64,000 bases of DNA. Origin: Polytrichum commune. Lineage: Eukaryota > Streptophyta > Polytrichopsida > Polytrichales > Polytrichaceae. This document shows positions 1 through 38,900 of this stretch, in pieces. How positions within the stretch are numbered: position 1 is the stretch's first letter; each line of letters opens with the position of its first letter. Both the position numbers and the translations under genes were made by a program. The DNA lies in the NCBI GenBank assembly GCA_950295325.1, contig OX485806.1, positions 17,980,001-18,044,000 of the forward strand. The letters are read 5' to 3'. The notes beneath the pieces are model-generated. The model ran no database searches, was not told where the DNA came from, and saw only the letters and a program-made list of their open reading frames with translations.

Positions 1-3000
1 TTCCAGTTGTTCCACACTCCATGTGCTCTCTGACTGCATGAGTTTTCCCCTTCCCAACTAATACCACCCTGGTATAATTTTGCACCCTCTGAGATGATTG
101 AGAGCATGTCGTTGAAGAGTCAGGTGAAATTGATGTGATTGACGCAAATTGGGGTTCAAACCCAGTTTTAATTTGCGGCTTTGTAGGATCATATCTATCT
201 GTTGCATACAGCAACTCTGACTGATCATCTACATAATCCTTTGATTGATCTCTGTACGATGCAGCAGTCAACGTAGGATTCTGTTTCTTGACAGGAAATT
301 CCGGTGCAGTCCTCCTAGGACTTAATTTCTCGCTATCAATTTCTCGCAATAATGTCTTCAGTTCATCCATGTACATTCCTGCTGTGGGATTTCCAACTGT
401 TGTAAATGTAGGATGATTATTGCTCTGTTTCTGATGATATGCATAGGCACCTGTAAATTTTCTTCCTGCTGTTGGACTACTGTGGTTGCTTTCTTGATAT
501 CGTCGTTCAGGAGACGACCCAACAGATGATGATAGGCTATTGTAATCCTACATTCCACATATAACTCTTGTCAGTGTCATATCAATTACTCAAAATCACA
601 TAGTCCTCACATTGCAATTAAGAATTCAACCCTAAACCCTTGTGCACGACAATGGCAACAACATCAACCTTCAAAGACATTTATTTTCTTTCTTTACTTC
701 AGGTTGAAGTGTAGAATGAAACCATTTCCTTTTGAAGCTCCAGAGTGATTTAGCACTTATCCATTCCCCCAATGAGATTGATAACAGCATAGGAGCATTG
801 CCTCATAGTAATCTCTGTCTATGAAGGAATACCTTGCAGTGGGCTGCCTTGGAGAAATTATAGTGCAAATTGCTCATGAAGGATGACCGGTTTGGTATCT
901 GTATGGCTCCCCTAGGAGGGCTTCCCCTTAGGCTTGGAGAGCTCAAAGTGGGTGAAGATGCTGTGGCACTGCGGAGCCGTTCGTCCAGCTCTCTTACCTG
1001 AATTTCCATCACATTCAGGCTCATGCATGACATCCCAAGGTATGTCTCAAATTATGTTGCCAAACACATCGCTATTACAATTGATCATGCAAGGAAGTCG
1101 GCAGGTAGCAGAGTCTTACATAGGTTAGCGAGGGAACTCTAGTGCTTATAAAGATGAAAACAAATGAATTGGGTCCACAGATAATCTTCAAGATATGTAA
1201 CTAATCACCTGGTCTGCGAGGGACCCAAGAACAAAGTCCAAAGATTGTGCCTCCCAAGGATCCCTTGTTGAAGGAATTCTTGCGCTTCTTACACCGTTTT
1301 TCATCCTCGGCGACTTGTTGATCACCTTCACCTGGCCCATCGGCGACTTGTTTGCCAACGTCCTACATTTCTGTGATAATGTGCAATACACTGGGGAGGG
1401 GCTAATTGCAGTTTTGTCACACATCTCAGATGCAAAACTAATCCTTTCCTTTGGTACGCCATCGTTCCGATTTCCATAACTGGTGACAAGATCAGGATCT
1501 CTCCTTGATGGAGAACTACACAGCCAGGGCTTCATGTACCTCCGCTCTGGATTGATTTTTGAGCTCCGTGAAGAACCGAACTCCCCAGGTAATTCTTTTG
1601 CTCGTTTCAGGGTATTTGTATAATCATCATCAAAGTTTCCAGTTTTCCATGCATTCAGAATTTTCTCAGCAATGTTACAGGCAGACCTTGACCTGGTATC
1701 GTTCTTCGAACTCTCTTCCTTATTTGCCAAAGGTTTAAAAGGAGATGGTACAACTTCATTAGACCGTTTCGGAGACTTGATGTAATCTTCTAGTTTCCTT
1801 GCATGATCTTTTTGTGACGAGCTGAGGGTTGGCAGACAGTATGTGTCATTGGGGCAGAACTCCTTTTGGCTCCTCCATAGTACTGTCTCTGGAGAAACCT
1901 GCAAATTGCAGGGCGTAATAAGAAACCACTCCTACTTGTCTTGGAAAACCTCTATATCATAAATTTGGTATGAGGTATGATAGATTGTAATCCGCATGTT
2001 ATTGTAAATTTAATCAAGACTCAACACTCCAATAAATCCAGGCTGCAAGAAAAGTCAAACCATCCCTCCTGTCCTGCATGACTATGATAACAATCACAAG
2101 GAATCCAGACATGAAAGAGACCGGACCTGTTTCACTGGTGAATGGAATCGTTCAGAAAGTGTTTTTATCCTTGTGGTGATATTCTCCAGTGCGTCGACTT
2201 GAATCCCCAACCGACTCAAACTTGGGTCCTTTTGAGACACGCCACCAACCTTATGCCTCCTTGGACGCTTTGCACTCAAGTTTGGTAAGCTTTTCATACT
2301 AGTTGCTGGCGTGTCAGAATTCCTTCCTTGTGAGACCTTTGGTAACTGCTCTAGTCTGGCTTCGGATTGGCAGTCTCCCTGATGAGAGCAAGTGGGACTA
2401 GACCTCTTACGTCTAAAAGGTGGGAGTGAAAACTCTGATTTGACAGAGTGAGAAGGTTTAGGAGCATCGTCAATCTTCTCCATGACATTGCTTTGTTTCT
2501 TCAATACACTAGGTCCGTCTATATAGCTTTTCCATGCTGCTCTTTGCCTAACCATTTTTGGTTCCTGAATCCTTTCTTTACACTCACTTTTCGTCAAGGG
2601 ATCTTCTCTTGACCTTGAGCTGTCATAAAACATCTGCGATGGCCCATTCCAGGAATACATCTATTCCATTTGAGTTACCATCTCTTGGAGAAGTGTAGAC
2701 ATCAATGTAGCCGTTGTTTTTCACTCACAAAATAGAATCTGGACCTCTTATTTGCAGTACGAGAATTTTGCCCAGAAACCTAGAAGTTTGATAACTTTCA
2801 AAGAAAAACCAATCTCTATGTAAACTCATAAACATATTATCTGCTGATGGGTATCACTAGGAGGTATTCAATTTCCCTTCTTTTCTTACTTTACATGTGT
2901 ATCATGCAGAAACAACACAAAGATTCAGATACCAGGAAAGCAATGGCAGGTTCTTTCATTCAGACCATCACCCTATGCAAATTAACTATTCTTCAAGGAA

Positions 3001-4293
3001 GCCAAGAGGAAGGCACCTCACTGAAGCAGGCACCAGACATGTCATTGCGCATACCACCATTGCACCTGAGACGGCTGTCCCAACTCTTTGGAGACCCCAA
3101 ACTCTTTCGTATCCACTTCAAAACAGATTCTGCATGAGGTTGCTGTTGTCTGTTCCCATTATCCCATACCCCGTGTTGGTTTTGCCTTCCATGTCCATAG
3201 ATTTTGCCTTCCATTTGAAGGTTCTCCAGACAAGCATGAGGATTTCCAGGAGAAGGCCAGCTCCTACTCGTCTCCATCACATGCTTTTTCGCTTTAGAGC
3301 AAGCACCCATATGTGTAACTGGCGACAATCGGAAAGTACTCCTGGGAGGACAAACGTTTGACCTGTGCACATCCTCTTTGCCATTTTCCTTCACAATTTC
3401 AAGATTTGAGCGCCTAACAGCACTGGCACCTCCTCTGCCACTCCCATTGAAGCTTTGGACGGATGAAGCTCTCTCTGCAATTGCGTTGTCAGCTGCTTTG
3501 CCCCAATCAGTTGCAGGTATCAGCCGAGAAGAATGAGAAGACAATAGTGGCTCAGTACATATCTTCTTGTATCCTTGTGACCCAGAGGATATGAAGGGCG
3601 GTTTCTGATGTTTTTTCTGTGATTGAGATCTCTGCCTGTCACCCGCATCAATTATATGGTTATGGCTCTGGGTTCCTCTCTGGCTCTGGATCTCTCTGTG
3701 ATAGAGGCCCACCACCTCTTTAGAAAATTCCATTGCACCCTCTTGGGATTTCGCAAGCCTCCCACTCCCAACAGATTCTACAGGTGGCAGTCTTGGCATG
3801 TTTCCGTCAATTCCAACAGGCAAAAACTCCTCAACACGCTCATATGAAACTCGACCAGGGGAGTTGCTGCAGCTCTTTGGATGGTGGACACCTGCTGCAC
3901 TTTGGTGTGAAGATTTAGAGGACAAAGGTCCAGTTTTCACGTCTGTCTTGTCTGCACCATCATCAGGAACACTTTGCTGAATAGGATTATTCACCAGAAT
4001 ATCAGCATCAGTTGAACGAACCTCCATATTCACGTCCTCCAAGGTGATGCATGCAAAGTCAGGTTTTTTATGAAAAATCGAACCTTGTTCTTGCGGCATG
4101 TCGACCATAGATTCCAAATTTCGATAACCACTTCCCTCTACAGGAGATTTTGTGGAGCTCCGTTCCGGAAGTTTTTCAAGGATAGCAACAGAGTGCCCTT
4201 GAACTGGTTCGAGTCTTCTTTCACTCTTAACAGCCATACTGTGTTTACTGGATGACGCTACCTTCTCAATTGTCCTTTCTTCGATCATTGAAC
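1..4293 (-). CDS. Ser/Lys/Pro-rich protein of unknown function (3' part, cut by the window edge)
   Basis: Exons on the minus strand: 4293-3017, about 2660-2127, 1898-1209, 1045-833 and 547-1, the last still open at position 1. Junction phases are 0 from 3017 onward. The first exon begins in phase 1 after a TGTGCAG acceptor, so coding sequence probably precedes it; an ATG at 4288 is the fallback start if the upstream exon is leader. About 1,085 residues are visible. They are low in hydrophobics, rich in Ser, Lys, Arg and Pro, with many SP and RSP motifs (FHSPVKQ, KSPKRSNE, NKSPRMKNG), which suggests a disordered, phosphorylated, possibly microtubule- or centrosome-associated protein. Short helical segments occur (NVMEIQVRELDERLRSA; MYMDELKTLLREIDSEKL). 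I do not recognise the family. Animal CEP295 also has a long disordered tail, so this may be the tail of the gene to its right. Confidence 0.55.
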
Positions 4294-4989: not shown

Positions 4990-6479
4990 TGGACAGGTCA
5001 ACTCAATCTGTCAAAGGGGATAATAAAAGCTTGGACAGCAAGATCTGCAAACTGTGTAGCCCTGAAGAAATTGTAGGCAGGATCACTAGTTCTTTGACCA
5101 CCTTCTTGTACCATGACGTTCGAGGTGCAAATATAATAGAGAGAGACCGGTTATCAGATAGCCTACTACGGCCAATCAACTCTTCAAGTTTATGGGATTG
5201 TTGTTCAGCGCCTACAATTTGTAAAAATTCTAGTTACGCTTTGCTCCACTGTCCCATAACCCATATGGTAATGGGACGCCATTATATTTGTTTATCATTA
5301 TTATTTCCTCTGACATACCAGGATGGTCAAATCTCCATCAGGTACGCAATTGATAGATATGTCAGTGGTTCCTTCTTTTTCTGACTTGGGCACAGGCAAT
5401 TCTATTCTCCTACATCTTGAGCATGTGAGGCTGCTGTGTGGCAAACCTGCACAAAGCACCCCACAAACAACCCCACAGACTGGTTATCGGTGAAGGCTTG
5501 GTAGCTCAGCTAATTTTGTAATGTGGCAAGCATAGGCCAGATTTTGAGCAGATGATGTCTTCCAATCTCGTATAAGGTTTTGCAGCTGTTGATGGTACAA
5601 AACAACAAATTGAAATCACTAGAACCATCCCTGATGTTTCGGGTGTCACAGAAGTCCTTCAATAAGCGTGAGCACCTCAGTGTGTATATGGACTTCATCG
5701 TCCATATTGCAATCCGGGAAGCAGTATTCCTGGAATGCAATATATCAACTTCCCTAAATATTATCGGCTGAACAACAATCCCATATTGAAGAACAATATA
5801 GATAAAGTCCAATTTTAACTACTTCTAAAGAGTGCTAGAAGTCGAGTTGTGTCAGCTGCTGTGGTGCTAGACATGCAGGAATGCAAATTATATTGTCACT
5901 GCAAGAAGATGAATCGATCATCAACGCCTCAGAACATCTATTTCAGTAATCTGGATTACTATCAACTCACTGAACTCTTTTTGTACAACATCCTTGAAAC
6001 ATATACATCATGTTCTGTAAAACATGAAAACAAATTGTCCACGATGACTCAAGGCACGCAAAGTTCAGAAACTGCAAACATAGAGTATATTCACAACAGG
6101 ATAACGATGCTTTAAGGTCCCTTGAAAGATACCTCTCAGAATCAGGGCCAATCACTGGCCCCCCTACCTCCAGAATAAAGTGACCAGTATTTCAACTAAA
6201 ACTTGAGGTACGTTGAAAAGCATATTTAGACAGCCTCAGAAAGCAGACTCTCAAATTAGGGATTAGAAAGTGAGTATCATGAAGTTGAGGATCACCCTCT
6301 TTCATCTTGTGCACGCACTAAATCACTACATGTAACATTGTTTCTATGACATCTTGACCACCTTCCAGATATTGCATTCTGATGCTAACTTCATTGATTA
6401 TCTCGTTTCTGGATAATGTCCCTTTACTAGATTTGTTCAGCAGTTGGTTTCTGTTGAGCCATTTTCTTAGAGTGGGTTT
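4990..6479 (-). other. Exon-like blocks between the coiled-coil gene and the Ser-rich exons
   Basis: Minus-strand open blocks bounded by plausible splice sites. 6479-6330 (50 codons, phase 0 to 0) contains LRKWLNRNQLL and SRNEIINEVSIRMQYLEGG. 6167-6133 (phase 0 to 2) encodes GGPVIGPDSE. A block from 5898 (phase 2) encodes SDNIICIPACLAPQ. A block near 5734-5681 encodes EYCFPDCNMDDEVHIHTE. 5446-5319 encodes LTCSRCRRIELPVPKSEKE and ends VPDGDLTIL at phase 0. 5211-5181 (31 nt, phase 0 to 1) encodes ALNNNPINLK and joins in phase to the exon starting at 4293. The links between 5898 and 5446 are not resolved. The blocks could be the middle of one long gene or a separate small gene. Confidence 0.4.
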
Positions 6480-9400
6480 CTTTTAGTTGTTTGCGCATCT
6501 GAAAATAAAGAACACTGTTTGCTTGATAAATGGAATCAGACATGAACTAAGTGCCATGGAAGGACCACACAATGCAAAATTAAATTCCATAGAATTAACA
6601 ACTGCTTTAATAAACTAGTTAGCTACAAAATCCATTTCACAAGAGAATCTATGATAATCTATTTGATGCTGTAAGAGACAACACTGCGTTCTGGACAACT
6701 CTCTCAGATATCTTCCACTCTAACCAGATTACATTCAGTGGTGACCTCAGGAATTGATATCTCCAGCAACTGACCATAGCCATACTCTAAGAGAAGGACA
6801 GGTTCTCATCACGGATATAATGGCAACATGCTGAATACCCACATATAGTTTGATTTAACCATATTTTCAAGTGACCACAAAGTTGGCATGTTCCTTTTTG
6901 CCCACAGTAGATTCGCTGATCTGGAAAATAACATACCTGGGCACGAGAGAGGATAAGATATCTTGTGCTTTGTATAAAGAGGACGTTTGTCATGGTCAGC
7001 ACTGATTGGCCTACGACACAGGAGTTGTGCAGCATGTATTCTGTCTTTCTGCCGCTCTTCTTCCTTGAGGGCTTCCTCCACTTCTTGCTCGAGTAGGGCA
7101 ATTCTCTGGAGATTACTCCTCGTTAGTGATTTGGATCTTTGTTGGAGCCATTCGGAAATCCTATCTATCAAATCAGACTCAGAGGACCACATGAAGCCAG
7201 GACATGCCATGAGGAGGGAAAAGTAGAGGGCCAAGAGCCACAACCACGATGTAGGGCTTTCTTCACTTTCAGTAAACCTTAGCACTTATCTTCAACATGG
7301 AGTTAAACATGACGCATATTCACCAAGAGAATTAGGTGCATTCCTATAACTTCTCCGTATTAGAAAGAATGTTGCAAATGCCTAAAGACAAATAGTCTAC
7401 AACAGTGTCATAGCTGTGAACTCTTCAAGGCCTCCGCTCAGAATGACTAAAACTTCGGAATGTTCTCAGGACATACTGAACTGTAAATACCTGATCATTT
7501 AACAGCTTTGCAGCAGCAGCATTCCCCCTTTCAAGTTTTCGCTCATTGTATAGTCTGTCAAGCTCAGCTTGGCGTTCTCTTTTACGTCTAGTGCTCTCCC
7601 TCTCTGCATCTGCAGCGCGCCAGGCATCAACCTCGTCCCGATGGGGGCAGTTGACAACTGCTGATGAAGGTCGATTCGTGCGATCCCGCAAGACAGAGTA
7701 ACGACAGTGCAGAAACGTATCTTTAAAATCAGTGGGATATCCCGCAAGTCTGTTATAGATGTTATCTTGTTCAACGTCATGGCTTACAGGAGGATACACC
7801 GATTGGCAGGCAGCTGGACAAAATGTTGCACATCCTTCAGCGTCAATAGACAAACGTGAAGTATTCACAACCCCTAGAAAAGAGTGAACGAAAATCTGCA
7901 TCTCATTTCTACAAATAGTGCAAATTGACCAAATGACAGTCCTACCTGTGAATATACAGTTCTTTGCAAGAAATCTGCCCTGTCAATAGTTGTTTTGCTC
8001 AATGCTTTGAAAGACAATCGGATCTGGTTGAAGAGACAAATATCAAAAAAATAATAATTCTAATGTGTGAAATGTCCTTAAAATGTGACTGGCGTAATAA
8101 ATTGTACGAATAGGACTTCCATTTACTATTATTATCAGCTAGATAGATTTTTATTACCAATTTTTTCCAGCGTTCTTGGCTTGGACCCGGGGGTGTAGCG
8201 GCGGGCAAGACTCCTCTCGATATTAGATACACTTTCCACAATTCTTCTCCGAACTGTGGGTGCCTTGTCCACTGTCTCTCTCATCTCTTTTAGCTCACGT
8301 TCCTTGTGACACAGTTTCGAGGTACCCCATCAGTGTGAGATCCTGAAGTACGAGTGCAAGATATTTCTTTTCACTAGAACTTTTAAGGAATGAGCACCTT
8401 AGAAATCATGAATATCTGCAGTAGCTGACAACGGACAAATATAGAGAAACACCAAATACTGTTCATTTCTCAAGGATAATCCCTCGTGAGTTTATTGATA
8501 CAATTACGTGTAGAGAATGCACCTTTTGCATGGCCTCCTCAAATCGAAGAATATCCCAACACCTGCTCTCCTCTGCCTGCCTTCCAAGAAGTTTTTCCTT
8601 TGCAGCCTGATATCACACGATATCCTCTGCTTAAGAAGAATAAAATCTAGATATCTATGTCATTCTCCAGATGCAGGTCTTTGATGCACCATCAATATAA
8701 AGAACTACTTCTTTGGGCTGACGACTATGGACAACACACGAAATGTGGACCCTACTGGCTAGATTCACAAACGTTATTGAGTTTCAGACCATCAGTGACC
8801 TCAAGTTAAGCCAAGAAGTATGCATAGAGCGTGCATTTGTAGGTTCACAAACGCAGTTCCAGGAAGTTCAATGCAGTTTCAGATGATTTTGGGGAATTTG
8901 AACCAGCTCCATACTTAGTCCCTTTGAACAACCCACCCTAAGTGCTTCCAGTACTAGGTAATTTGATGACTTCCCAAACTCCCCTTACAGATAATGTTAT
9001 CAAATAGATGAGATAATGACCCTGTTGCGCTCGACCAGCACGGCAGCATCATGGCTGAGACCAATGCTCTGACATGCATTTGCAAATTCATCCTCTAAAC
9101 TTGCAATGCGCCGGCGCTGGTCCTCCCTCCACACCTCCTACACCCTTGCACAAGACTGAGGTCAGCCATTCTTAACCAGAAGAATCAAAGCATAATAATC
9201 TCAGTCTCGGGATGGGACTCTAGTATCTATTCATTCTGGACCTCAATAGCAGATAAGAGGACGAAAAGCGGCATCATTGTTCCTGTTTCACATAAAGGGA
9301 TCCAGGATGAAGCAATGGAAATTCCATCTAGTACGACACCAAGATGTAAATATAGTAGCATTGCAATATGTGAGCGACTGAAAACCGCACGAAATCAAGC

Positions 9401-11038
9401 TCTCAAACAAGTCAAACATAGTTCTCAAACTAAGCATCGAAGGATTTCTGTTGTTAGTACTGAAATCAGGGTCCTTGGTTTAGTCTGATTTGTGGCAATT
9501 AAATGAAGGAGTGAAAAATACAAACTAAGCACACATGTACCACTAGAGGTTGAGATTTGCACTTTGTTACCTTGAGATGGTTAAGCAGCTTCTTGTTGCC
9601 TTTCACTTTCCGGTCCCGAAACTCCTCCACTTGTCGTGATGCAAAAAGCATCTCTTGAGCTCGAACCTGTGCACATGCAATGTACACAACCTCATGATAT
9701 CCCACATCCTGATTGTCTATCAGACATGGATAAGCCCTCCATTAATACAATTCACATTCGTCATGGAACCACCCAGAAAGAACTTTGAACACCAAATAAA
9801 TGACATGTTTGTGAACTGCAAGTAGCATACATTCTGATATTTTTGAATCCTGGAGCATCTCATTAAATAGGATGTCAAAGACATGAGCGTTTTCCTGATA
9901 TAGTATTTCATTCTGAATAGTAGATGCCCAATACTGAGGATGAGTCTGGCACAAAATACACACTGTTCAAGAGAGAAATTGCAAGGAATGGCCACCAGCT
10001 ACCTATCACTGGCAACTACTTCTGATACTTCAAATGGATCTGGAACAATTACAACATTTACTACATCTACAAAAACATTTGTGGTAACGTGACTGTCACT
10101 TAGATCAAACCTGCAATATGCGATTTAGTCGAAGTTTCTCCTGATATTGTCGTACAGACGCTTTCTCCTCCTCCGCACTTAGCGGATATGTTGCATTCTG
10201 AAAAGGCTGCAAATAGCACTGGAGAAATCACAGACCTGACCTTGACTATACGTCGAAGGGAAAGCAGCAACTCCCAAGTCAGTTCTTCAAATGTATTCGC
10301 CCTTGCAGACTTTTGACTCGATGGAGGAATAAATGTTGACTGGTTTCTAAGAGATTAATTCACCAGCTACTTCAAAATCAATACCCTCCCTATCTACATG
10401 ATTAGTGATTTGCTGTACATGCATGCACCTAAATTGTGCAAGACTTATTCTCAAAAAAATGTATTCAAGATGCACAACACTGATCTTTGCGAATTTCCCC
10501 TGTGTGAACCCTGTGTCAGGCATCCACCTCTACATGGATGGCAGCTTTCCCCATCATCCGGACCTAAGTTGCCAGGTACGTCATCCTAGATACGTCAAAT
10601 CAAGGATGCAATAATCACATCAACAATTCACAAAGACAACCCAAGCTTATGACAAAGACTACAACCAAAGCACATTGGAAGCATGAAGAGAGACACCGAC
10701 TTCTTGTTAGTGCAATAGAGACATGCTCAAACAACTGAATAAGAAAACAGCGGCCAGACCTAGACTATCCATATCAAATACTACGCAATAGACATTTCTT
10801 AACATCCTCTGAATTGTGTTGGCTTCGAAAATCAGTACATTCATGGTTAGGTCTATTCATAGATAAGACAAAGAAATGTGAATATGCAACATTGAATGGT
10901 GCAAATGAATATTGAGAAATGAATTACCTTCAGTAGTGCAGGTTGATCAGGGGGTGCCAGAGCAAGTGTCTCATGCACCTTCTGCTGCAGGTACTTGTTC
11001 CGTTTCTGTCTATCCTCTGCTAACCTTGCTGTCGGCAT
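6427..11038 (-). CDS. Coiled-coil protein, candidate CEP295/Ana1-like centriole protein (5' part)
   Basis: Exons read on the minus strand with matching phases: 11038-10928 (ATG), 10197-10111, 9666-9571, 9137-9021, 8606-8523, 8302-8158, 7974-7946, 7873-7491, 7177-6937, 6786-6725, then either 6498-6427 (ends in TAG) or 6479-6330 (stays open). The first five exons alone give 165 residues. The protein is charged and helical. Residues from about 43 (LSAEEE) through LNRILQVRAQEM and EVWREDQRRRIASLE to GLSHDAA align without gaps, from my recollection, to the N-terminus of animal CEP295, which converts centrioles to centrosomes. Later exons carry a Cys-rich stretch (CATFCPAAC) and coiled coil (QRIALLEQEVEEALKEEER). 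The 8158 donor and 7974 acceptor disagree in phase; a donor 5' of it (CCGG/GTCC) restores the frame. An acceptor lies just upstream of the ATG, so the leader is spliced. Family call is probable, not proven. Confidence 0.6.
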
Positions 11039-26905: not shown

Positions 26906-29900
26906 GTAAGTAAAACTACGACCTGAAAAGGTTGCTTCGTAATCCTGACATTCTACCTTTGCAAGTGTCTTTATTCATTTTAATTGTAGATGCGGCCTGA
27001 TGAAGATCTTTGTAAACTAATAATCTTGCAGTTTATAGGAGATTTAGATCATGTATAAATGACAGCTGTTTGATTTGGTTCTCATGTGTTTCAGGCATGA
27101 CAACAAACAGACAGAGCTTTTACAGCAGTTTAAGATGAATGAAGTATCAATGAAGGGGAAAGCATCAAGCAGGACTGCGCCGGTTGAAGAATTAGAAGCA
27201 CTTGAACCTACACTACTTGAAACGTTTCAAGTGAAAAGTACAGGAGCGTCAATTAGTACAGACTGCAGTATACCATTACTTTATCGCTATTGCGAGGTGC
27301 TGGCTTATGACAGGTGTGTACTTTTGGGATTATTTAATGCATTCCAAACCTTGGCTATGGTCCTTCTTCAGAAAGAATGAATCAGGGCACTTAAGGTAAT
27401 GTGTCCAGATCTGGGTGAGTTGGCTATAAGGTGAGTTTGAGAGTTTGAGAGTTTAACCCAGATTTTCTTAAGGCTTAAATTAACATGGTATGAGAGTGGG
27501 GCTGGGCTATATAAAACTGGCTTACCAACTTCTCGTGCTAGGATTGCTGGGCTAAGCTAGCCTTTCATAGGCCAGGCAGGGATTTAGGGTGGCAGATTCC
27601 ATGGGTCAGATCTCAATTGAGATCCTAGAGTGGACTCAAATTTTTTTGGACTGAAAGAGGAGATCTAAAGGTTTCACCCAACATTCAAAATATGGCTCTG
27701 ACACAAGTTGCTCTACTGAGTTGTTGACAGAAAAGTCCCTCAAAGAGGGACCAGACTTTGGTCCGTCTTTGAGGGACTTTGTGGATAACTCATTTGCAAA
27801 CCATTACGGGTTGCATTGTGCTTGTGAAGTAGGTTTCTCATGTACTCAAGGAACTACACTTTTTGGATGCAGTTTCCGCACTTCAACACTTTCATTTGAA
27901 TACTCCGATGGTGGCAGTGGAGATGTAAAATGCGAAGTATTCTTCACTACAGGTGAAGTTTTACAGCGAGTCGAAGGGCGGGCGGCTTCTTCACCATCAG
28001 ATGCAAAGCGAATTGCTTGCTTGGATGCGTGCAAGCGTTTATACGAGTGTGGAATGCTTACAGATCTCCTCTTACCCAAAATTCAGGAGGATGAACATCC
28101 TCTTGTAAATGTTGCTCGAGGAAATAATCATGTTGCAGGTACAAGATTTCACTTTTATGTCTGACTTTGTACGCTTGCTTGTACAAGAATACTTGTCAAG
28201 TTGATGATGTCCCTTGTCAATTTGGCAAGTATACATTTTCTTTGTGATTTAAAGTTCCTACTACACTGATTATGGTAAATAGTGTGAGCAGATGTGTACT
28301 GTGACTTACCCTAGGCAATCCTATAGTGTTGCCATGCTCCCGCGATATACCCACCTCCTTCCTCGTAGGTTGGAATTCTTTCAAATGCACACTATTTTCT
28401 ATCCAACAGAATTGTTGCATCCTACAACATGGACCTCTGATGTTAAATATTGTGGGCTGGTAAATAGTGTGCACTAATAGTATTACCCCCAATGTTCTCG
28501 CATGGAAATATGCTCCATAGTGTGGTCCACTAGTATATTGTGTTGTTGAGCACATTGTGACAATTCAAGGGCCAATCTTAAAGGCGAGAGGGAAGTGTTG
28601 CATGCAAGCGCACCTGTCATCCATCCATGTTAAAGACTATGCTCCCTATAGGTTTGTGCTTAATTTATCTCTGTCTGTGTTCCATTAGAGTAATTCAGCA
28701 TCCATGAAGGTACTTCCGGTGTCAAATCAACTATTAGACCACTCTACAGGTTCCATACTATTTCAGGACTTTTTTGTTGGATGAACGAGGGGTACACTCA
28801 CATGCAACTCTAGACCAACTCTAGACCAAAAAGTCTCCTAGGATTGTCTGTTTGTTATTACTAACAAGTAAAGGCCAGAAACAATCTGAGAAACATAAAC
28901 AGTTTCTTGTGACAAATATTCCTCAAGTTTTCAGTAGCTCCATACCATTTGATGCAAATTTTGATAAAGCCATATCACTAATAAAGCCATTTGATTACTA
29001 ATAAAGGACTTTTCAATGGTAACCAAGAGCATAGACATAAGGTAAGAGGGCTTGATTTGGTTACTTATCTTTATAAAACACCTATATTTGAGTGGTGTGT
29101 GGTTAAATATGGATGTAAGAGCAGATACCATAAGACATCTGTCTAGAAGAGATTGGACTACGTGCTCAAAATTTATTAAGAATCCTAGCTTCAATAGTCA
29201 ATATAATTGGGGGACCTATATGATCCTTTAATAAGAGAATTTCACTTTGATAATGATAAAGAGATTATATATATATATAGATAGATAGACAGATAGATGA
29301 GCTCTGAAAATCATGAGGACAATGGCTACGGCCTCAGTTTGCATTTGCTAATTATCTCTGACTAATCACATGTTTAATTTCATAAGAGATGTGTGTTCAG
29401 AGCTAAAAATGTCCGTTTTAGGACCCCTTACCTTGTAGGTATCTAGCAGTAAATGTTAGTATGGAGTTAGGCTTATGCTTGCAAATCAAATCTAACCTAA
29501 ACCTTAATCCATGTTGCAGAAAAGCTTCCATCACAAGTGCACTCGACAATTGTTCCAGAAGCTTTTAGTGGGACATGGGCGATGGCAGAATCTGGGGTGA
29601 CATTGTATGCTTACACAGTGAGCTTTGTTCCAACACCCAATGATAGGGCGTATGTCAATTTTGGATTGTTTTTAGAATCTGACTTGGGACCAGAGGCGGG
29701 AACCATGGAGGTTGAACTCCAGCTTAGAAACAGAAGGCTTGTGAACACCAAGTGCTTGCCTTCTGGAAGACTACATTTTGAACAGCATCAGGTGATTGAT
29801 CTTTTTACTTCAGCCACTTTTCACCTTTCAATTATTTTGCGACCTTTAAAAAAACAATATATCTGTTTCCAGCCCTACATCATTGATTGTATAATGATGA

Positions 29901-32900
29901 ATTCTTATGTTTGTCATGCATATTTTTATAATGCAGCTGCATGATGCAAAATTGTTCCAAGAACGACTCATTAGCTCCATTTTGGATCAAACACTTGGTC
30001 ATAATATCACCGGGGAGTGGAATTCGAATCGGCTTTACCTCCTCCTACCTCTAAAAGAAAACGTCAGGGCAACGTCACATTTGTCAATCGACTGGGAATG
30101 CATCGCAAAAGTGATCTCAGATGTTGAGTACAAGCCTCAAAAGTACATATCTCGAGACGACGAGTCTGGAGATGATCATCATCTTGTAAAAATATGGGAC
30201 GGTGATGTTCCTGTCAATTTCGTTATAGATTCGGTGGTTCAAACAGTTCACAATGGCTTTATCTATTTTGCAAGGGAGTTGATTCATGACCTTACTGCAA
30301 TGAGCCCCATGGTCACTAAGCCCAATGATACCTACTTTGAGTTCTTCAAACAGAAGTAATACCCTAAACCTACATGATCTTTTTTCTATAAACTATATGA
30401 TAAGTTGCTTGCATATTAGAGTTATCCTTTAACTCAATGGGTCTTTCATCGGGAGTTGGTCCCCTATGATTTTGCATTGGTTGCTTTGCTTACAAAGTCA
30501 ATAATGTCTTTCCACTTGTGGTCCATGATCGGAGGTAGTGAATGACTTTGATTGGAGAGCAACCTATTTTGGTTCATTGAGGGCCAAACTCATTTTAGCA
30601 CATCTTTGAATGTCAAATTGAGTTTGACCTCAATGATCCAACATAGAATTTTCTTTGTTCAAACCTCCACTCTACCACGGAACAAGCACTAAACTTACCG
30701 AACATGGAATGTATTGTATGCTTAACAACTAATCCCTCGCCAAAAGTCTTGTTGAGTGAAAGGATAACTCTATTGTCAAAGTTTTCAAATTTTATCTTCT
30801 TAAGTACAAGGATAGCATGAATGAGGTTGAAGAAACTGTTCCCTTCTCTTTGAAATGTGTACACCAGGCATAAGACAACCCTACAGCATTTACAGCAACC
30901 AATGTTGAAGGCCAAAAAATTCATCCAAGTCCACAGCCTTTTAACCGTTCATAATAATAATGAACGCCCAGGTTAACTTTCTATCTCTTTTTCTCCTCCT
31001 TCTGGCTTCATGAGTCACCTTCCCCGTTCTGCAAATGTTTTGGTCGTTATTTCCATCTTGTATTAGAGATATCCTTCAATTCAATGGTATTTTCCGTCGG
31101 AAGTTGGTCACCTATGATTTTCATTGGCTGTTTTGCACGCAATATCAATAATTTCTTCTTTCCACTTGTGGTGCATGCTCGGAGGTGGTGTTCAAATTTG
31201 AATGAAGAGTTAGCTATTTCGGCTCATTGAGGGTCAAGCTCATTTAGCACCTCTTAGCATGCCAATTTGAGTTTGATCCTCAGTGAACTGATACAGAATG
31301 TTCTCTGTTCCAACCTGCACACTACCTCCAAGCATGCAACTCAAACTAACCGACCATGGAAGGTATTCTTTGCAGAACAACCAACTCACGACCAAAAGTC
31401 ATACTGAGCTAGAGGATGACTCTGTTTATTTAGTACTTCAGAGGAGGCAATTTGTTGGGCATTATACTTTTAACAAAGAAAGTGCATAGCAGTAGTTTTA
31501 ATGAGGTAATAACTCTGTGAAATTCTACAGCTGCGGATGAATTGAAAGCTGAGCAATTGGTTGAGTTGCCTCTAGAGTTGTGCAAAATAATGGTGAGGGG
31601 GATATCCTGTGGCCTTGCAAATGGAGCTTCCCTTTTGCCGTCATTTATGCATCGTCTTGAAGGACTTCTTCTGGCAATACAACTTCGGAAGACTCTTTCT
31701 CAGTCTTATCCTGAAGCCTCTCAAGTGTCTGCAAACGTGGTAAACTTAAAATACAAAAACCTTGTTGCCTCTTGTTATTACGTGTGTTGAGTGACCATAG
31801 TGTAAAGTGACCTCAGTGCTGACAACATAATTGGTGCTTACCATGTTGAGCAGATGCTGGAGGCAATAACAACGAGCAAGTGCCAAGAGAGCTTCAGCCT
31901 TGAAGGTCTGGAACTTCTGGGGGATGCTTTTCTTGAGGTTGCAGTTAGTGAGAATCTCTTTCTGGTCAACAGTAACTTTCAAGAGGGTAAATTATCACAG
32001 CTGCGAACATCCATTATATGCAATTCAGCTCTAGAGAAGCTTGGCAAAGAGTGTGGCATAATGGTGAGTACTTTATCCAGATCTCGCCATGAAACAAAAT
32101 TTTCTACGTTTGATTGCAATTTCCTTGAGTTGTTGATGCTTTTTGATGCCGATTGTCTTTTCTGAAACATTAAAATTTGCACATTCTTAAAATACTTACC
32201 AATCATCCAATCAACAATTATATAAACTTGGTCCAGCACAGCCGATCTAGTGCAGTTTGAAATTGATTCATGAGCAGTTTATAAAGAGAAAGAGAAGCAC
32301 GCACAAGCCAAAGCAATCACCAGATTAATCGATTCATGATGACTGAAGTAGATCAGGTTCGCTATTGTGTGAAGTTGCAGTAAAAAATGACTGTTCTTGT
32401 TACACTCACATCTGAGTTCAGGTCACCACACAACCTAAGACAATTGAACTTAAATCTACATACTTTGACAGATAGAGATGAAACAAAGCATCGTCTTGTG
32501 TTTCCCAGTGTACGAGAATATTGGCTCCCTATTTGTCTTTCAATGAAAGTTGGATGTGTTTCGCACTTATTAAACATGAAGGCTTCTTCTAAATCCTAGT
32601 GTTTGAGGCAATAGAGAAATCGGCAAAGTCTCTCAAAGAGAGACCAAACTAGGAGTTTGGCGCTTCTTTGCGGACTTTCTATAAAAGCTCATTAGAGCTT
32701 CTTGTGTTGGAGCCCAATCTTGAAAATTGGGTGAAACTCCTTAGACCTCCTCTTTCGAGGCAAAGAATGTGAGAACTTCAGGATCTAAAGCACGGTCTGA
32801 CCCATGAGCCCTGCCACCCTAAATGGCAGGTTGGCCTATGCAAGGCTAGCTTGGCCCACGATCCTAGTATGACAAGCTAGTAAGCCAATTATTTATATCC

Positions 32901-35900
32901 TGACCCCACTCTTTTACCAAGCCTTCAGAAAACTTGGGTGACTTCATACAGAAACTCTCAAACTCACCTTCTAGCCAACTCACTTGGAGTTTCACCTGGA
33001 GACTTTATGGAAAACTTTATTACAGCAAGAAACTCTTGAACTGTCACATATCCTTCTATCTAGCTTGTTCTTGTGAGATGTAATGCAGTGAGACGCTAAT
33101 GGTTCTCAATTGAAATCAATAAGATCCTTATGAAATATTTTTCTGCTCATTATCTCACATCCTTTGGTTGCTCTTGGATGCAGAATTACATTCGCGACAT
33201 CCGATTCTGTCCAAATGACTGGGCAGCACCAGGGCGTGCTGTAGAGTGTGAGAAGGAAAACATCCATGTAAACAAAAATAGAACAAGAAGGCAGGAAACT
33301 GTCTTACATGGGAAGACAATCGCAGACGTGGTTGAGGCCCTCATAGGTAATAACTGTAGACATTGAAGAAAATTTGTTAGAATTGTATTTTTCCCAATTA
33401 CCATTTCTATTTAGGTGCTAAGGTGTTCAGAGTATAAGTTCCGCATATGGTCAAATTCGGAGTGGTTATTCAACAAATCAACAGATATTCTATATTTCTT
33501 CTTTACTCATTTGATTCAATCAACAAATGCATCTAAAATCTGCACCTTTACGTGCAGGGGCACATTATGATCAGGGTGGTGAGAATGCCGCACAGTCTAT
33601 GATGCGATGGTTTGGACGTGACGTTGGAGTTGACCCTCAAAAGAGGCATGAGGCTCGCACACGAAAGAACGGGCAACAAGGACTCTTGCCTGCTAGTAAA
33701 ATTGTTCAACTCGAAGGTCTGCTGACTTACAAATTTGAAAACAAGGACCTACTCGTGGAAGCACTAACACATGCCTCTTATGGACCCTCCAGTCGCGATT
33801 CTTATCAGGTACAATAATCCCATGTTTCTCTAATACAAAAGGTCCCTAGACTGGTCATGATTGTATACTAATCTCAGCTATGGTTTGAGGTTTAGGGTTT
33901 AGGGTTTAGGGTTTGCATAACTTCACCTACATGGCCAGAATAGATTTATCCTTTAACTCAATGGGCCTTGTCGTCAGGAATTGGGCCCTCATGATTTCCA
34001 TTGGTTGTTGTGCATACAAAATCAATAATTTCTTTCCACCTGTGGTGCATGCTCAGAGGTAGTGTTTGAATTTGAATAATGAGCAATCTAATACCTACCG
34101 AACATGGAAGACAACCAATTCCCGACCAAAGCCATGTTGAGTTAGAGGAAAACTCTAATGCGCCATTTACAGGCAAAGAAAGAGAGTGATATGTAATGAA
34201 AAGTTTTGGGGTCATGAAGCACATGAAGGAGAATATACTGGAAACTCTTTTGCTTTCCTTCAGCTACCTCTAAATATTTGTGTGGAGTATGGTTGACATA
34301 GAGATAGATGTGGAATCCCAAGTTGATGTTTGAATGTCTTGTTGTATAGATAGCATGATCATTCCGTAGTTATTTGCTCCATTCCATGAACGGGCTGAAT
34401 ACCTTGATTTCCACTCAGCTTTGGAATTTCAAAAACTCCTTTCAAAAGGAGTTTACAATATTATTATTTCTTTGTACAGAGGTTGGAGTTTTTGGGAGAT
34501 GCTGTGCTTGATTTTCTGATCACGAAACACTTCTATAAGCACTTGGCACCGTTGAAACGGGACCCTGGATTGCTCACAGACTTAAGGTCAGCTGCAGTGA
34601 ACAATGAGTGCTTTGCGCGCGTGGCAGTCCGCCATAGTCTACACCAGTACCTCCTGTACAATTCTCAAGATCTCGCCAAAAGCATCAACTCTTATGTTAA
34701 GTTTGTACAAGATTCCACATCTGATGCTGAGTCATCCTGTCATGGCTGGGCAGGGGATGACGGTCCCAAAGTAAGACTTCTGTACTCTTATCAATTCCTC
34801 TGTGCCTGACAAAGCATTATGGACTAGGTAATGGATTCGAGGACCCTGCCACAGGCTGTAGTCGGCACCCAATACCCAACTCAATGAGGTAAGTATTGGG
34901 TGCCTACTACAACTGATGGCAAGGTGACACATGTCCATTCTTGAATGTAATGCTCAGGCCATTCAGCAAGGTCATCAATTATGGGGTGATAATTTGTATC
35001 CTTGTATCCAATCAAGAATAGACTCATTAGCACAATCACTTGGTTTGACCACTGCAAACTAGGTAATGGATGTGAAGAGCCCTGCCATGGGCTGTAGTAG
35101 GCACCCAACCTACTGAGCAGCGAGGCTAGTATTGGGTGCCTAAATCAACCCACTAAAGGGTGACACAAGTCCATCATCGGATGTAGTGGTTAGGCCACAA
35201 TAAGCTCATCAATTATGGGTGATAATGTGCCTCCTTGTATCAATCAGGAATAGGCACATCAACAGAATCACTTGGCCTGACCAGTAGTATTGTCGCTTTT
35301 CATCCCTAGGTGCATAACTTTGTTCAACTGAGTTGTACTGTCACGGGTGTGCTATACTAGCCATTCTTCTTTGCCTGTTCAGGGTATTCCAGGACGGTAA
35401 TTGTTTCTCCAATCCTATCAACTAAACTATAGCTATAGTTATAAAGTTCAAAAGTTAAAGCTCATGGCGGGAAGTTCTTTTCTAGATCAATAATGTTTTT
35501 CCATTATGCACCACCAAATGATCACAACTTTGGCTGTGTACCTATGGACAACAATTTGACACGACATCTTACCATTCTCCCAGGTGTTGAGTGACTTGGT
35601 GGAATCGTTAGCCGGCGCAGTATTTGTAGACTCAAATTTTGATCTTGATACTGTTTGGCGTATTTTCAAAGAAATCCTGCGGCCTTTGGTTACACCTGGA
35701 ACCTTACGGCTAGAACCTACTCGGGAACTACGGGAGCTTTGTCAGTCATTGAAGTTCAATGACCCAGAATTTAAAAAGACACATGGAGCCAAGGGAGATT
35801 TTGAAGTCGCTGTCACAGTCTATATGAATGACACGCAGTTTACAGAAGTTGCTCGCAAGGCGGACAACAAAAGTGCTAAGAAAGCTGCTGCAATCCAGGC

Positions 35901-38900
35901 ATTGGCGAAGCTCAAGGTAAAGCACGAATCCCCATATCTCCTATAAGGTTTACCAGATTGTCATCTGCCTAATCAATCATAATGTCTTGGTTTCTTGACT
36001 TTCCCATTCTGAACTTTGATGGCATTCTGTACTCTGCAGCAACACAAACTACTGCCTGTTGTTTGTATTGCCCTCCCACTTTAAATTTAATGAAAGATTT
36101 GAAGTTGCAAATTTCACTGCAACAGACTTGCTTAAAGAATGGTGTTGAGGTATGGAGCCTTAAGGTAGGTGAGCCTAATTCTGTTACTAACCTTGATCAG
36201 ACACCTATATTTGAGTGGTGTGTGGTTATATGTACATCTAAAAGCAGACAACAAAAAGATATGTCTTTAAAAGAGATTAGACTACATGCTCAAACTTTGT
36301 TAACTATTCTAGCCTCAATAGTGAACATAAATGAGGGTGCCTATATGACCATTTTATAAGAAAGAGAATCTTCAGTCTAATGAATAAGATATTCCTAGGA
36401 GCTCCAACAAATATGAGGAAAATGGATACCACCTCAATTTGGATTTGCTAATCATCTTGCACTAACCATGTGTGTCATATCCTTAGAGAAAGGGGGTGCA
36501 GAGCTAAAAGTGTCCATTTCAGGTCCACTGAAGTGAAAGGTGGTCCATTTTGAGTTACACAACTTGCAGATTAGTTGTGGAATAGAGATCTTGTTGCACG
36601 ACACAAGTTGCATCCGTCGCTTTCAAATGACATGGAAATTAATATGTTCTATTGGCACAGTCCTCCATGATGTGTTCTGATATGTTCTGTATCTCAAACT
36701 TTGTGGGTTATCTTGTTTCCAGACTCTTGATAAAGAACATTTCAAGAGCCGTTTGCTGAAGCGAGAAGCACTGTCCACAAGATCGTTTTCACCTCTCGTG
36801 GATGTTCCGGAGGATGCAGAATCTACAAATACTAATGCAGATACTAGTATTACAAACGCTAGTCACTGCAATGACCTTGGAGTCGTTGGCCACTCCTTCA
36901 CTCCATCCACGAAAAATAAGACTGGTGAGTTGAACTAGTTCAATTGGAAGTTGCTTTCAATCGGCTCGATACTTTCAAGAAAAGATAAACGTCATCATCC
37001 CGTCAGGTTTTGCTTCGATTTGAAGGAGAAGGTGGCTCCAACTTGAATTTGATCCTCGTAGAAGGTCACTAAGACTTGAGTGCAGAGGCAAACTTTTTTG
37101 CCCATGGGTGTTGGCAACTGAGGCATAACTAGCTTTAATAGTTTGGGCAACACTCCAAAGCAAACATGCTCCAAAGATGGCATTAATTCAATATGATAGA
37201 CACCCATCAATGAACTTTGACCACCTCCAGAACATGGCAGTTCAAATTCTCACATTAATGTATTCCAATTTTGTACATGTGTGTCTAGTTTAATCAAGGA
37301 TCCACATCCATCATGTCATTCACTTTGACATAAAACAAGATTTTGACTAGCTGCCCCAATTTAGAAACTTTAACTTTGCGACCGTTGGATCTTCTCAAAA
37401 TTTTGTGGAATGAAGACATTTTTGTCTCCACGCTTTCATTATGGAATTGGCTTCTACGTACAAGTGGATGTTTGAAATAAATGTTGGTCATAGTGGACTC
37501 AAATACCCTCAACATCAAGGATCGTATAAAAATTCTAGTACATTAAGGGTTAACTACACGCCTAGTCATGTTCCACTTAAACATAGGTGTCCAATTCCTT
37601 AGAGTGATCACATAATGCCCACATACATATTGCCAATTAGAAAAAAGTTAGCCATGTTCTGTGAACAACGGTTGCATGCAGTTGTGAGTTTGAATTTGCT
37701 ACTAACATAGTAGTGGAACGGTCTAACTTGGTATTTCCTTCAGGCGTCGCATAAAAATTGGTGTGCTATGTTATTAGAGTGATTGCAAGACCTGATGATG
37801 ATTAGTGATGTGAGCCACACTAAATTAGATATTTAGTGTTTAATGTTCACAACAGACATGTTTCGTTTTGATCAAGGCAGACAGCTGAGGGTTCAAATTC
37901 ATGCTGCAGGTTCGAATAATGCTGAGTCTGCACAAAATTCCCAAAGCAGGAAAGCGGAGTATGTGAACGAAATAAAGTCTTTTATCTCATATTCTGGCCA
38001 CGGAACAGATGTTGTGCACCTATCAAGGGAAAGTGTGTGCTCCAGAGAGGAATCCTTGAACCAAGTGGATAGTGGAGATGATATATTTTACGATGCCCAA
38101 TCAACAGTGGAATACTGTGAAATCATAACACCTCCAGATGTGATGGAGACTGCCACATCATCATTCTGGGAAACAGGGCTCAATACTGGGGGTCTAAATT
38201 CAGAAGTCCAAAACCCTATCCATAGAGAGGATTCAGCAACATTTAAATCACCGAAGAATACTACGTTCCCAGACACTGCCACATTTCCTCTTTCTGGACA
38301 TGATTATGTTCCACAAAGAGATCAGGAACTCCCAAATCTTGTGGACACATTGCAGTCAGGAGGCAACATCCCAGCATACCAATCCGAGGTTTATTCCATC
38401 GTGGACTTCCTTCGCAGATCCAAAATCGGTGATTTGCGGGATGCTCCTATGTCAAACACCACACCTAAATCTGGCAAATCTACTCATTTGAACGGAAGCT
38501 CAAGCTATTTATTTTCAGGAGAAGCAGCTACTGATTACTTCAATTCATCGCATCATCGAACAAGCCAATTCATTCCACCCGCAGCTCCTCCTCCAACAGA
38601 AGAACCAGGTTCGAACTTTGACATCTAGAAGTTTCAATTTTGTGTCATAACATTCTTGAGTACCGTGTAGTCTCCCAGGACAAGTGGAAATATCTAAGAA
38701 TTGTTCGGATAACATAAGAATTGTTCCAATTGGGGCACACGCCTTCAATTGGATCTTGAGAAGTGGAATCTGAGTAGAGTCACACAATCTCTCATCTTTG
38801 TGTGACCAGACCATGTCAAGTTTGAATGAATTTTTGCCTTCAACGCTTCTATAGCATGTTAGCAAGTTACAGTAAAATCAAAACTTTTCTTCTTCTGAAG

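Follow-up and report, generated by a model that had tools for sequence, protein, structure and literature searches.

Our analysis indicates that the moss Polytrichum commune, a plant probably with swimming sperm, is likely to encode two members of the CEP295/Ana1 family, one on the minus strand of the window (the whole stretch of 64,000 nucleotides analysed here) and a second, colinear copy on contig C6. The two genes would then represent a known family with a new member in an unexpected lineage, again probably, as judged from sequence comparison. In animals, CEP295/Ana1 serves to build and stabilise the centriole wall, and it has been studied as a centriole-to-centrosome conversion factor.

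The sequence-only reading had placed the gene at 6937 to 11038. The gene itself is borne out, with an ATG at 11038 and exons with GT-AG borders; position 6937 turned out to be a splice donor and not the gene's end, and predicted coding blocks run on beyond the left edge of the window (Table 1). Over this interval our hand model places eight exons on the minus strand, all bordered by GT-AG and joined in compatible phase, which keep 424 complete codons open, and one splice junction falls inside the conserved motif, between RILQ and VRAQEM. The joins of exons to the left of 6937 are provisional, none being fixed unambiguously between 6937 and 4293. An initial ab initio model, broken into many tiny exons, gave way to a stricter one, which departs from the hand model in exons 2, 3 and 8 and leaves out exon 9; part of the training material for its codon model came from the very downstream frames that it later predicted. 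For the two colinear copies, the transcript-free ab initio models predict proteins of 2013 and 1516 residues.

Table 1. Exons and putative coding blocks of the CEP295-like gene, in window coordinates.
Feature	Position	Strand	Basis or remark
Exon 1: ATG, 37-residue N-terminal extension	10928..11038	-	donor AAG/gtaatt; counterpart in C6 paralogue weak
Exon 2: LSAEEE...NRILQ, conserved N-terminal (CR1-like) domain begins	10111..10206	-	alternative acceptors 10197 or 10218
Exon 3: VRAQEMLFASRQVEEFRDRK...NHLK	9571..9666	-	75% identical to C6 exon; ab initio favoured longer exon from 9708
Exon 4: EVWREDQRRRIASLEDEF...ERNR	9021..9137	-	hand model, C6 comparison, ab initio
Exon 5: AAKEKLLGRQAEESRCWDILRFEEAMQK, strongly conserved domain ends	8523..8606	-	hand model, C6 comparison, ab initio
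Exon 6: charged stretch and linker	8158..8302	-	hand model, C6 comparison, ab initio
Exon 7: linker with VLRDRTNR (kept in C6 paralogue), then highly charged stretch	7491..7873	-	
Exon 8: ends ...SCPG at splice donor	6937..7177	-	start uncertain (7177, 7164 or 7105)
Likely exon 9: LPHSSLTCS..., phase-compatible continuation	5319..5446	-	conserved in C6; skipped by ab initio script
Long coding block farther downstream, probably part of this gene	3066..4293	-	ab initio
Downstream coding block	2127..2619	-	colinear with C6 paralogue
Downstream block with second conserved motif IAEKILNAWKTG...RRYMKPWL	1209..1898	-	C6 comparison, ab initio
Predicted downstream coding block	833..997	-	ab initio only
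Predicted coding block leaving the window; more blocks to about C4:17977180	1..547	-	ab initio only

Alternatively, two adjacent genes could lie here, the first encoding a short protein of about 430 residues with only the N-terminal part, the second following independently downstream in the same orientation. The ambiguous exon joins between 6937 and 4293 would allow such a division, and a stop is possible soon after an exon at 6498, which would yield a protein of 434 residues. However, the SCPG sequence also closes an exon in the C6 paralogue, and the donor at this point is kept in both copies together with the conserved, phase-compatible next exon. The downstream blocks are likewise colinear in the C6 paralogue, and the block with the second conserved motif is identical to its C6 counterpart at 20 of 67 positions (E = 6e-9 in a two-sequence comparison). 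We consider two separate genes unlikely and treat the blocks as parts of one long gene.

The human CEP295 N-terminus that served as reference in the comparisons with human CEP295 was a provisional, unconfirmed sequence, whose peptide did not turn up among 30 listed papers of 64. When BLASTP compared the window protein with this single sequence, 130 columns aligned at 32% identity (E = 2e-8). The first 165 residues had initially been described as aligning without gaps; the gapless part is in fact shorter, covering 88 columns at plant residues 46-133, with gaps thereafter. The accompanying observation that LS..EE, RILQVRAQEM and W.ED....IASLE occur at matching distances was reproduced, the spacing of LS..EE, RxLQVRxQE and W....Q...I..LE being equal in the window protein and the provisional human sequence. 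Provided that this reference is right, the likeness exceeds chance: the Smith-Waterman score against it was 146, three shuffle designs averaged 53-59, and 0 of 3000 shuffles in each design reached the observed value; that none did so in any of the three designs holds for both paralogues. The best ungapped diagonal scored 104 and the next best 21. A profile built from the two plant proteins without the human sequence gave 30.2 bits on the provisional human CEP295 sequence. Among 20,000 heptad-preserving shuffles the highest score was 14.6 bits, and no entry in a set of 177,635 PDB sequences exceeded 12.2 bits with the same profile.

Within the N-terminal domain, the window protein and the C6 paralogue share 59% identity over 158 columns, with dN of 0.275 and dS of 1.65 (dN/dS about 0.17). 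Behind this domain, the predicted coding sequence of both copies is long and shows little conservation. The columns that are identical between the window protein and the provisional human sequence (28 of 88) are preferentially those conserved between the paralogues: 25 of the 28 are so conserved, and among the remaining 60 columns the number is 32 (p = 0.0008).

A different explanation would be a plant-specific helical protein, for instance one of cortical or phragmoplast microtubules, in which charged N-terminal helices have come to look like CEP295 through convergent coiled-coil composition. It would be consistent with the restriction of the likeness to one domain, with a Pfam scan in which no family exceeded its cut-off for the plant protein (best 8.6 bits, cut-off 25.1), and with PDB searches that returned no relative (best E-values of 0.44, 0.1 and 1.3, all for unrelated proteins). 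The provisional human N-terminus likewise had no match in the Pfam scan. As sole query against the unspliced whole genome, exon by exon, it returned neither locus, which also fits convergence, short exons making this a weak test; its sole match was on contig C7 with E = 0.645. Convergence is, however, difficult to reconcile with the failure of heptad-preserving shuffles and reversed sequences to give the observed score, with 88 gapless columns on a diagonal that far exceeds the next best, with the coincidence of human-identical columns and columns kept between the paralogues, and with the lack of any PDB sequence near the plant profile's human score. A convergent helical protein appears rather improbable to us, and we take membership in the CEP295/Ana1 family as probable. 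Among bacterial and archaeal genomes and viral contigs, 54 and 35 stretches fit the peptide patterns, none of which was confirmed by tblastn.

The proposed resemblance to CEP295/Ana1 is supported for the N-terminal domain by the alignment statistics, the conserved paralogue and the presence of SAS-6, Rotatin and CEP44; beyond this domain, comparison with provisional human residues 166-283 gave no significant likeness, the score being reached by 294 of 3000 shuffles and, with local shuffling, by 2100 of 3000. Like human CEP295 (KIAA1731), the plant protein is predicted to be long in addition to matching the N-terminal domain. It differs by having 45 residues before LS, compared with 12 in the provisional human sequence, and human CEP295 carries a C-terminal ALMS motif (PF15309), for which a frame-by-frame search of the moss genome without splicing gave no match at E <= 1. 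According to the available part of PMC5007451, deletion of ALMS from human CEP295 did not abolish centrosome formation, unlike deletion of the PICA motif, a stretch of 43 residues in the C-terminal part; the ALMS motif is therefore treated here as accessory. The same source places the conserved region of CEP295 inside a DDC8-like N-terminal domain that is required for centriolar localisation, and it is the region of this domain that is matched in moss. By description, the downstream blocks would set the moss protein apart from DDC8-like domain proteins, as they suggest a far longer protein than an N-terminal-only relative. Drosophila Ana1, with 1729 residues (fragment numbering, PMC13422256), falls between the two plant predictions and has its conserved domain near the N-terminus as well; this domain, CR1 (residues 19-134 in Ana1), is named as common to all homologues in the portion of that paper at hand, and the likeness is one of description, not of sequence. 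The same applies to C. elegans SAS-7, which a review gives as the worm counterpart of CEP295 (PMC6678760).

Of the centriole pathway partners, SAS-6_N, RTTN_N (Rotatin) and CEP44 are each present in the genome over the Pfam cut-off. Profile searches of the genome gave no match to PPP1R35_C anywhere and did not find Tcp10_C. For CEP192, the genome search gave Cep192_D4 only below the cut-off, the best match lying 0.9 bits under it, a divergent homologue being conceivable. One candidate was rejected since TMEM131-like fits better (65.4 versus 32.7 bits), another since its frame adjoins a CFAP65 domain. The genome search for a Polo box gave no convincing match, a divergent homologue again being conceivable; a candidate of 22.4 bits (cut-off 23) was passed by the tool only together with its neighbours (23.1) and was rejected because no kinase frame, judged by eye, adjoins it.

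The conversion role that had been suggested for the gene is doubtful, as the genome searches gave no convincing CEP192 or Polo-box match, and for this reason wall building is likelier than centrosome conversion as the plant role. We lean towards the view that the plant gene encodes a CEP295/Ana1 homologue that may serve as a wall stabiliser and elongation factor for sperm basal bodies rather than recruiting pericentriolar material. In sperm-forming cells, new centrioles would arise de novo with a SAS-6 cartwheel, and Rotatin would help to recruit the CEP295-like protein to them. The N-terminal domain of that protein would dock on the centriole wall, its long tail might span the triplets and steady the microtubules during wall elongation, and CEP44 would load afterwards. 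As far as the accessible texts go, Ana3/RTTN lies upstream of Ana1 in flies (PMC11127918), and in human cells CEP44 lies downstream of CEP295, which stabilises centrioles independently of PCM (PMC7021698).

A true CEP295 homologue could nevertheless still recruit pericentriolar or blepharoplast material, with plant-specific or undetected partners replacing CEP192 and Polo. Partner binding could fall to the conserved N-terminal domain and the second conserved block (INAW.TG...PWL), one borderline Polo-box match occurs in the genome, and blepharoplasts in ferns and cycads are described, in the part of PMC9014216 available, as a route to many centrioles. Since no Cep192_D4 match exceeds the cut-off and no Polo box is convincing, divergent homologues being still conceivable, we judge such a recruiter quite improbable and prefer the wall stabiliser.

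If true, a plant homologue beside Rotatin and CEP44 would date the wall-building arm of this pathway to an early stage of eukaryote evolution. The pathway could then be studied in an organism whose centrioles arise solely de novo, in sperm, and whose phenotype is not obscured by a mitotic centrosome. We speculate, with somewhat less than even confidence, that CEP295 predates animals and originally stabilised and lengthened the wall. The plant would have kept SAS-6, Rotatin, the CEP295-like protein and CEP44 for de novo sperm centrioles without CEP192 and Polo, centrosome conversion would be a later animal use, and in flowering plants the gene would have disappeared together with sperm flagella. 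No CEP295 homologue is reported for Chlamydomonas in the available text of PMC5007451, and the portion of a BLAST survey at hand lists Ana1/CEP295 for neither Arabidopsis nor P. patens and, in its table, no plant Rotatin (PMC5371999). The RTTN_N match in the moss genome, a putative Rotatin, contradicts the latter entry as far as that table is available, and such BLAST negatives therefore need rechecking with profiles.

The minus-strand gene of Polytrichum commune that starts at 11038 probably belongs to the CEP295 family, judging from its conceptual protein. The human CEP295 N-terminus used as reference is a provisional sequence, and every human comparison depends on its being correct. In a two-sequence BLASTP comparison, plant residues 46-175 and human reference residues 13-138 were 32% identical (E = 2e-8), and no gap interrupts the first 88 columns (plant 46-133). 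The top ungapped diagonal held 29 identities in 95 columns (score 104; runner-up diagonal 21). The motifs named in the sequence-only reading are present in the translation, where an intron splits RILQVRAQEM after RILQ.

Given this provisional reference, the comparison above and the following tests argue against a generic coiled-coil resemblance. The gapped score was reached in 0 of 3000 shuffles under each of three designs (simple, heptad-preserving and 20-residue-window) for both plant paralogues. A profile built from the two plant proteins alone gave the human reference 30.2 bits, whereas 20,000 heptad shuffles reached at most 14.6 bits and 177,635 PDB sequences at most 12.2 bits. Among the 88 columns, those in which the window protein equals the human one were conserved between the paralogues in 25 of 28 cases versus 32 of 60 elsewhere (Fisher p = 0.0008). 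In Pfam, the plant proteins matched no family above cut-off and the human reference N-terminus matched none at E ≤ 1; no relative was found among PDB sequences. The human reference query returned neither plant locus from the unspliced genome, its sole match lying on contig C7 (E = 0.645); this negative comes from a weak test, since each exon encodes some 32 residues and identity is near 30%. Past the first domain, the plant protein showed no significant similarity to human reference residues 166-283, and the ALMS motif had no match in the genome. The PICA motif is the other published conserved element of CEP295 (PMC5007451, accessible part).

When residues 1-216 of the plant protein were searched against the whole assembly (407.8 Mb, 64 contigs; window at C4:17980001-18044000), six of the nine matches fell exon by exon on the window gene and three on contig C6. 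This one further locus, near 5.231 Mb, carries the exons of the window gene in unchanged order. Over four exons and 131 codons, the two copies differ by dN 0.275 and dS 1.65 (Nei-Gojobori), which indicates that purifying selection acts on the N-terminal domain and that this is no chance open frame. The four compared exon pairs are equal in length (96, 96, 117 and 84 bases); for exons 2 and 3 this equality rests on the acceptors that we picked, because the ab initio script favoured others.

Translation of the minus strand and reading of the splice borders gave eight exons, all GT-AG and compatible in phase, with an open frame of 424 complete codons. The end of the gene had been placed at 6937, which did not hold: this position is a splice donor, and the conserved, likely ninth exon is compatible with it in phase. 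Exon 8 closes with SCPG on a donor in the C6 copy as well, where the conserved exon that follows also fits in phase.

Exons of the CEP295-like gene (window positions)
Feature	Position	Strand	Basis
Exon 1	11038-10928	-	GT-AG borders, phase
Exon 2	10206-10111	-	GT-AG borders, phase; acceptor chosen among several possible
Exon 3	9666-9571	-	GT-AG borders, phase; acceptor chosen among several possible
Exon 4	9137-9021	-	GT-AG borders, phase
Exon 5	8606-8523	-	GT-AG borders, phase
Exon 6	8302-8158	-	GT-AG borders, phase
Exon 7	7873-7491	-	GT-AG borders, phase
Exon 8	7177-6937	-	GT-AG borders, phase; ends SCPG at donor
Exon 9 (next conserved exon)	5446-5319	-	phase-compatible with exon 8; conserved in C6 copy

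Downstream of exon 9, the order of blocks matches the C6 paralogue; the best match is IAEKILNAWKTG...RRYMKPWL (window 1898-1209; 20/67 identical, E = 6e-9). A home-made exon-chaining script predicted 2013 residues from the window gene, whose model ends about 2.8 kb past the left edge of the window, and 1516 residues from the C6 copy. These ab initio models are provisional: training of the codon model included part of the downstream frames, and the script leaves out exon 9. The locus could also be read as two genes instead of one long gene. The RRYMKPWL match marks a second conserved block, INAW.TG...RRYMKPWL, in the otherwise divergent tail of both paralogues (window 1209-1898, minus strand; C6:5224512-5224272, on to about 5223865).

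In the accessible part of their paper, Tsuchiya et al. 2016 did not find a Chlamydomonas homologue of CEP295 (PMC5007451), and in the survey table of Yamada and Goshima 2017 only human and fly are marked as having Ana1/CEP295, whereas P. patens and Arabidopsis are not (PMC5371999). Among the matches listed in our literature search (titles and abstract openings, most subscription journals lying outside its coverage), there was no report of a plant CEP295. We therefore call the gene a new member of the CEP295 family in an unexpected lineage, its membership being probable and not proved.

SAS-6 is encoded in the same genome (E = 2.1e-19; 80 bits in Pfam confirmation), so the plant should build centrioles; together with the Dicer-like and light-harvesting matches described below, its presence makes a moss or near ally with swimming sperm likely. 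CEP44 scored 36.9 bits (cut-off 27; 39.1 in confirmation) and the Rotatin N-terminal domain RTTN_N 39.4 bits (C2:8646376-8646552; cut-off 25; 40.6 in confirmation). In the parts of these papers available to us, the Ana3/RTTN-Rcd4 complex aids Ana1 recruitment in flies (PMC11127918), and in human cells CEP44 loading is downstream of CEP295, which also stabilises centrioles without depending on pericentriolar material (PMC7021698). Tcp10_C and PPP1R35_C gave nothing in the genome profile search, a weak test. RTTN_N exceeds the Pfam cut-off here, although no plant is marked for Rotatin in the 2017 survey table (PMC5371999, in part). The CEP44 domain falls on two adjoining stretches (C1:10427288-10427868), the first above and the second below cut-off, which possibly represent a plant CEP44.

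Cep192_D4 had no match above its cut-off of 35.5 in the genome. Of 14 control genomes, 3 likewise gave signals under the cut-off with this model. Two lower matches were rejected: Pfam assigns the first (34.6 bits) to a TMEM131-like protein (65.4 bits), and the second (24.6 bits) is in a frame adjoining a CFAP65 domain. One POLO_box match (C1:44881414-44881563; 22.4 bits), which passes the cut-off of 23 when its neighbours are counted in (23.1), contains an internal stop and was set aside, no kinase frame being seen around it by eye; this model rang below cut-off in 1 of 14 control genomes.

As far as the accessible text of these sources goes, CEP295 requires its DDC8-like N-terminal domain for localisation to the centriole (PMC5007451), its N- and C-terminal parts associate with microtubules, and centriole elongation depends on CEP295 (PMC4958302). 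Ana1 acts through Cep135 and microtubules, and deletion of CR1 abolishes neither Cep135 binding nor microtubule association (PMC13422256). The plant protein combines a conserved N-terminal domain with a predicted remainder that is long and divergent and in which serine and arginine are abundant (12.3% and 9.4% of the window model). We hypothesize that in spermatids the protein attaches to newly formed basal bodies, might steady and lengthen their walls, and would do so without using the animal pathway to pericentriolar material.

The window also contains a plant-type Dicer-like gene (about 27655-35943, plus strand) with Dicer_dimer, two RNase III and one dsRNA-binding match above cut-off; another dsRNA-binding match, at 39361-39624, falls short of it. 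Among PDB sequences, Dicer homolog 1 matches the gene best, and Dicer-like 4 and Dicer-like 3 come next. Elsewhere in the genome, 22 of 34 listed light-harvesting matches (E ≤ 1e-10) are strong (E ≤ 5.2e-35). A cluster spanning about 95 kb (C5:1751760-1846160) holds, on both strands, at least 14 light-harvesting chlorophyll-binding genes whose profile scores are identical. For one light-harvesting protein, the two-domain PDB chain 9vfj_2 ranked first (548 bits in two stretches), ahead of 8htu (482 bits) and 7xqp (480 bits), which we take to be Physcomitrium entries; other single-domain chains reached at most 447.3 bits.
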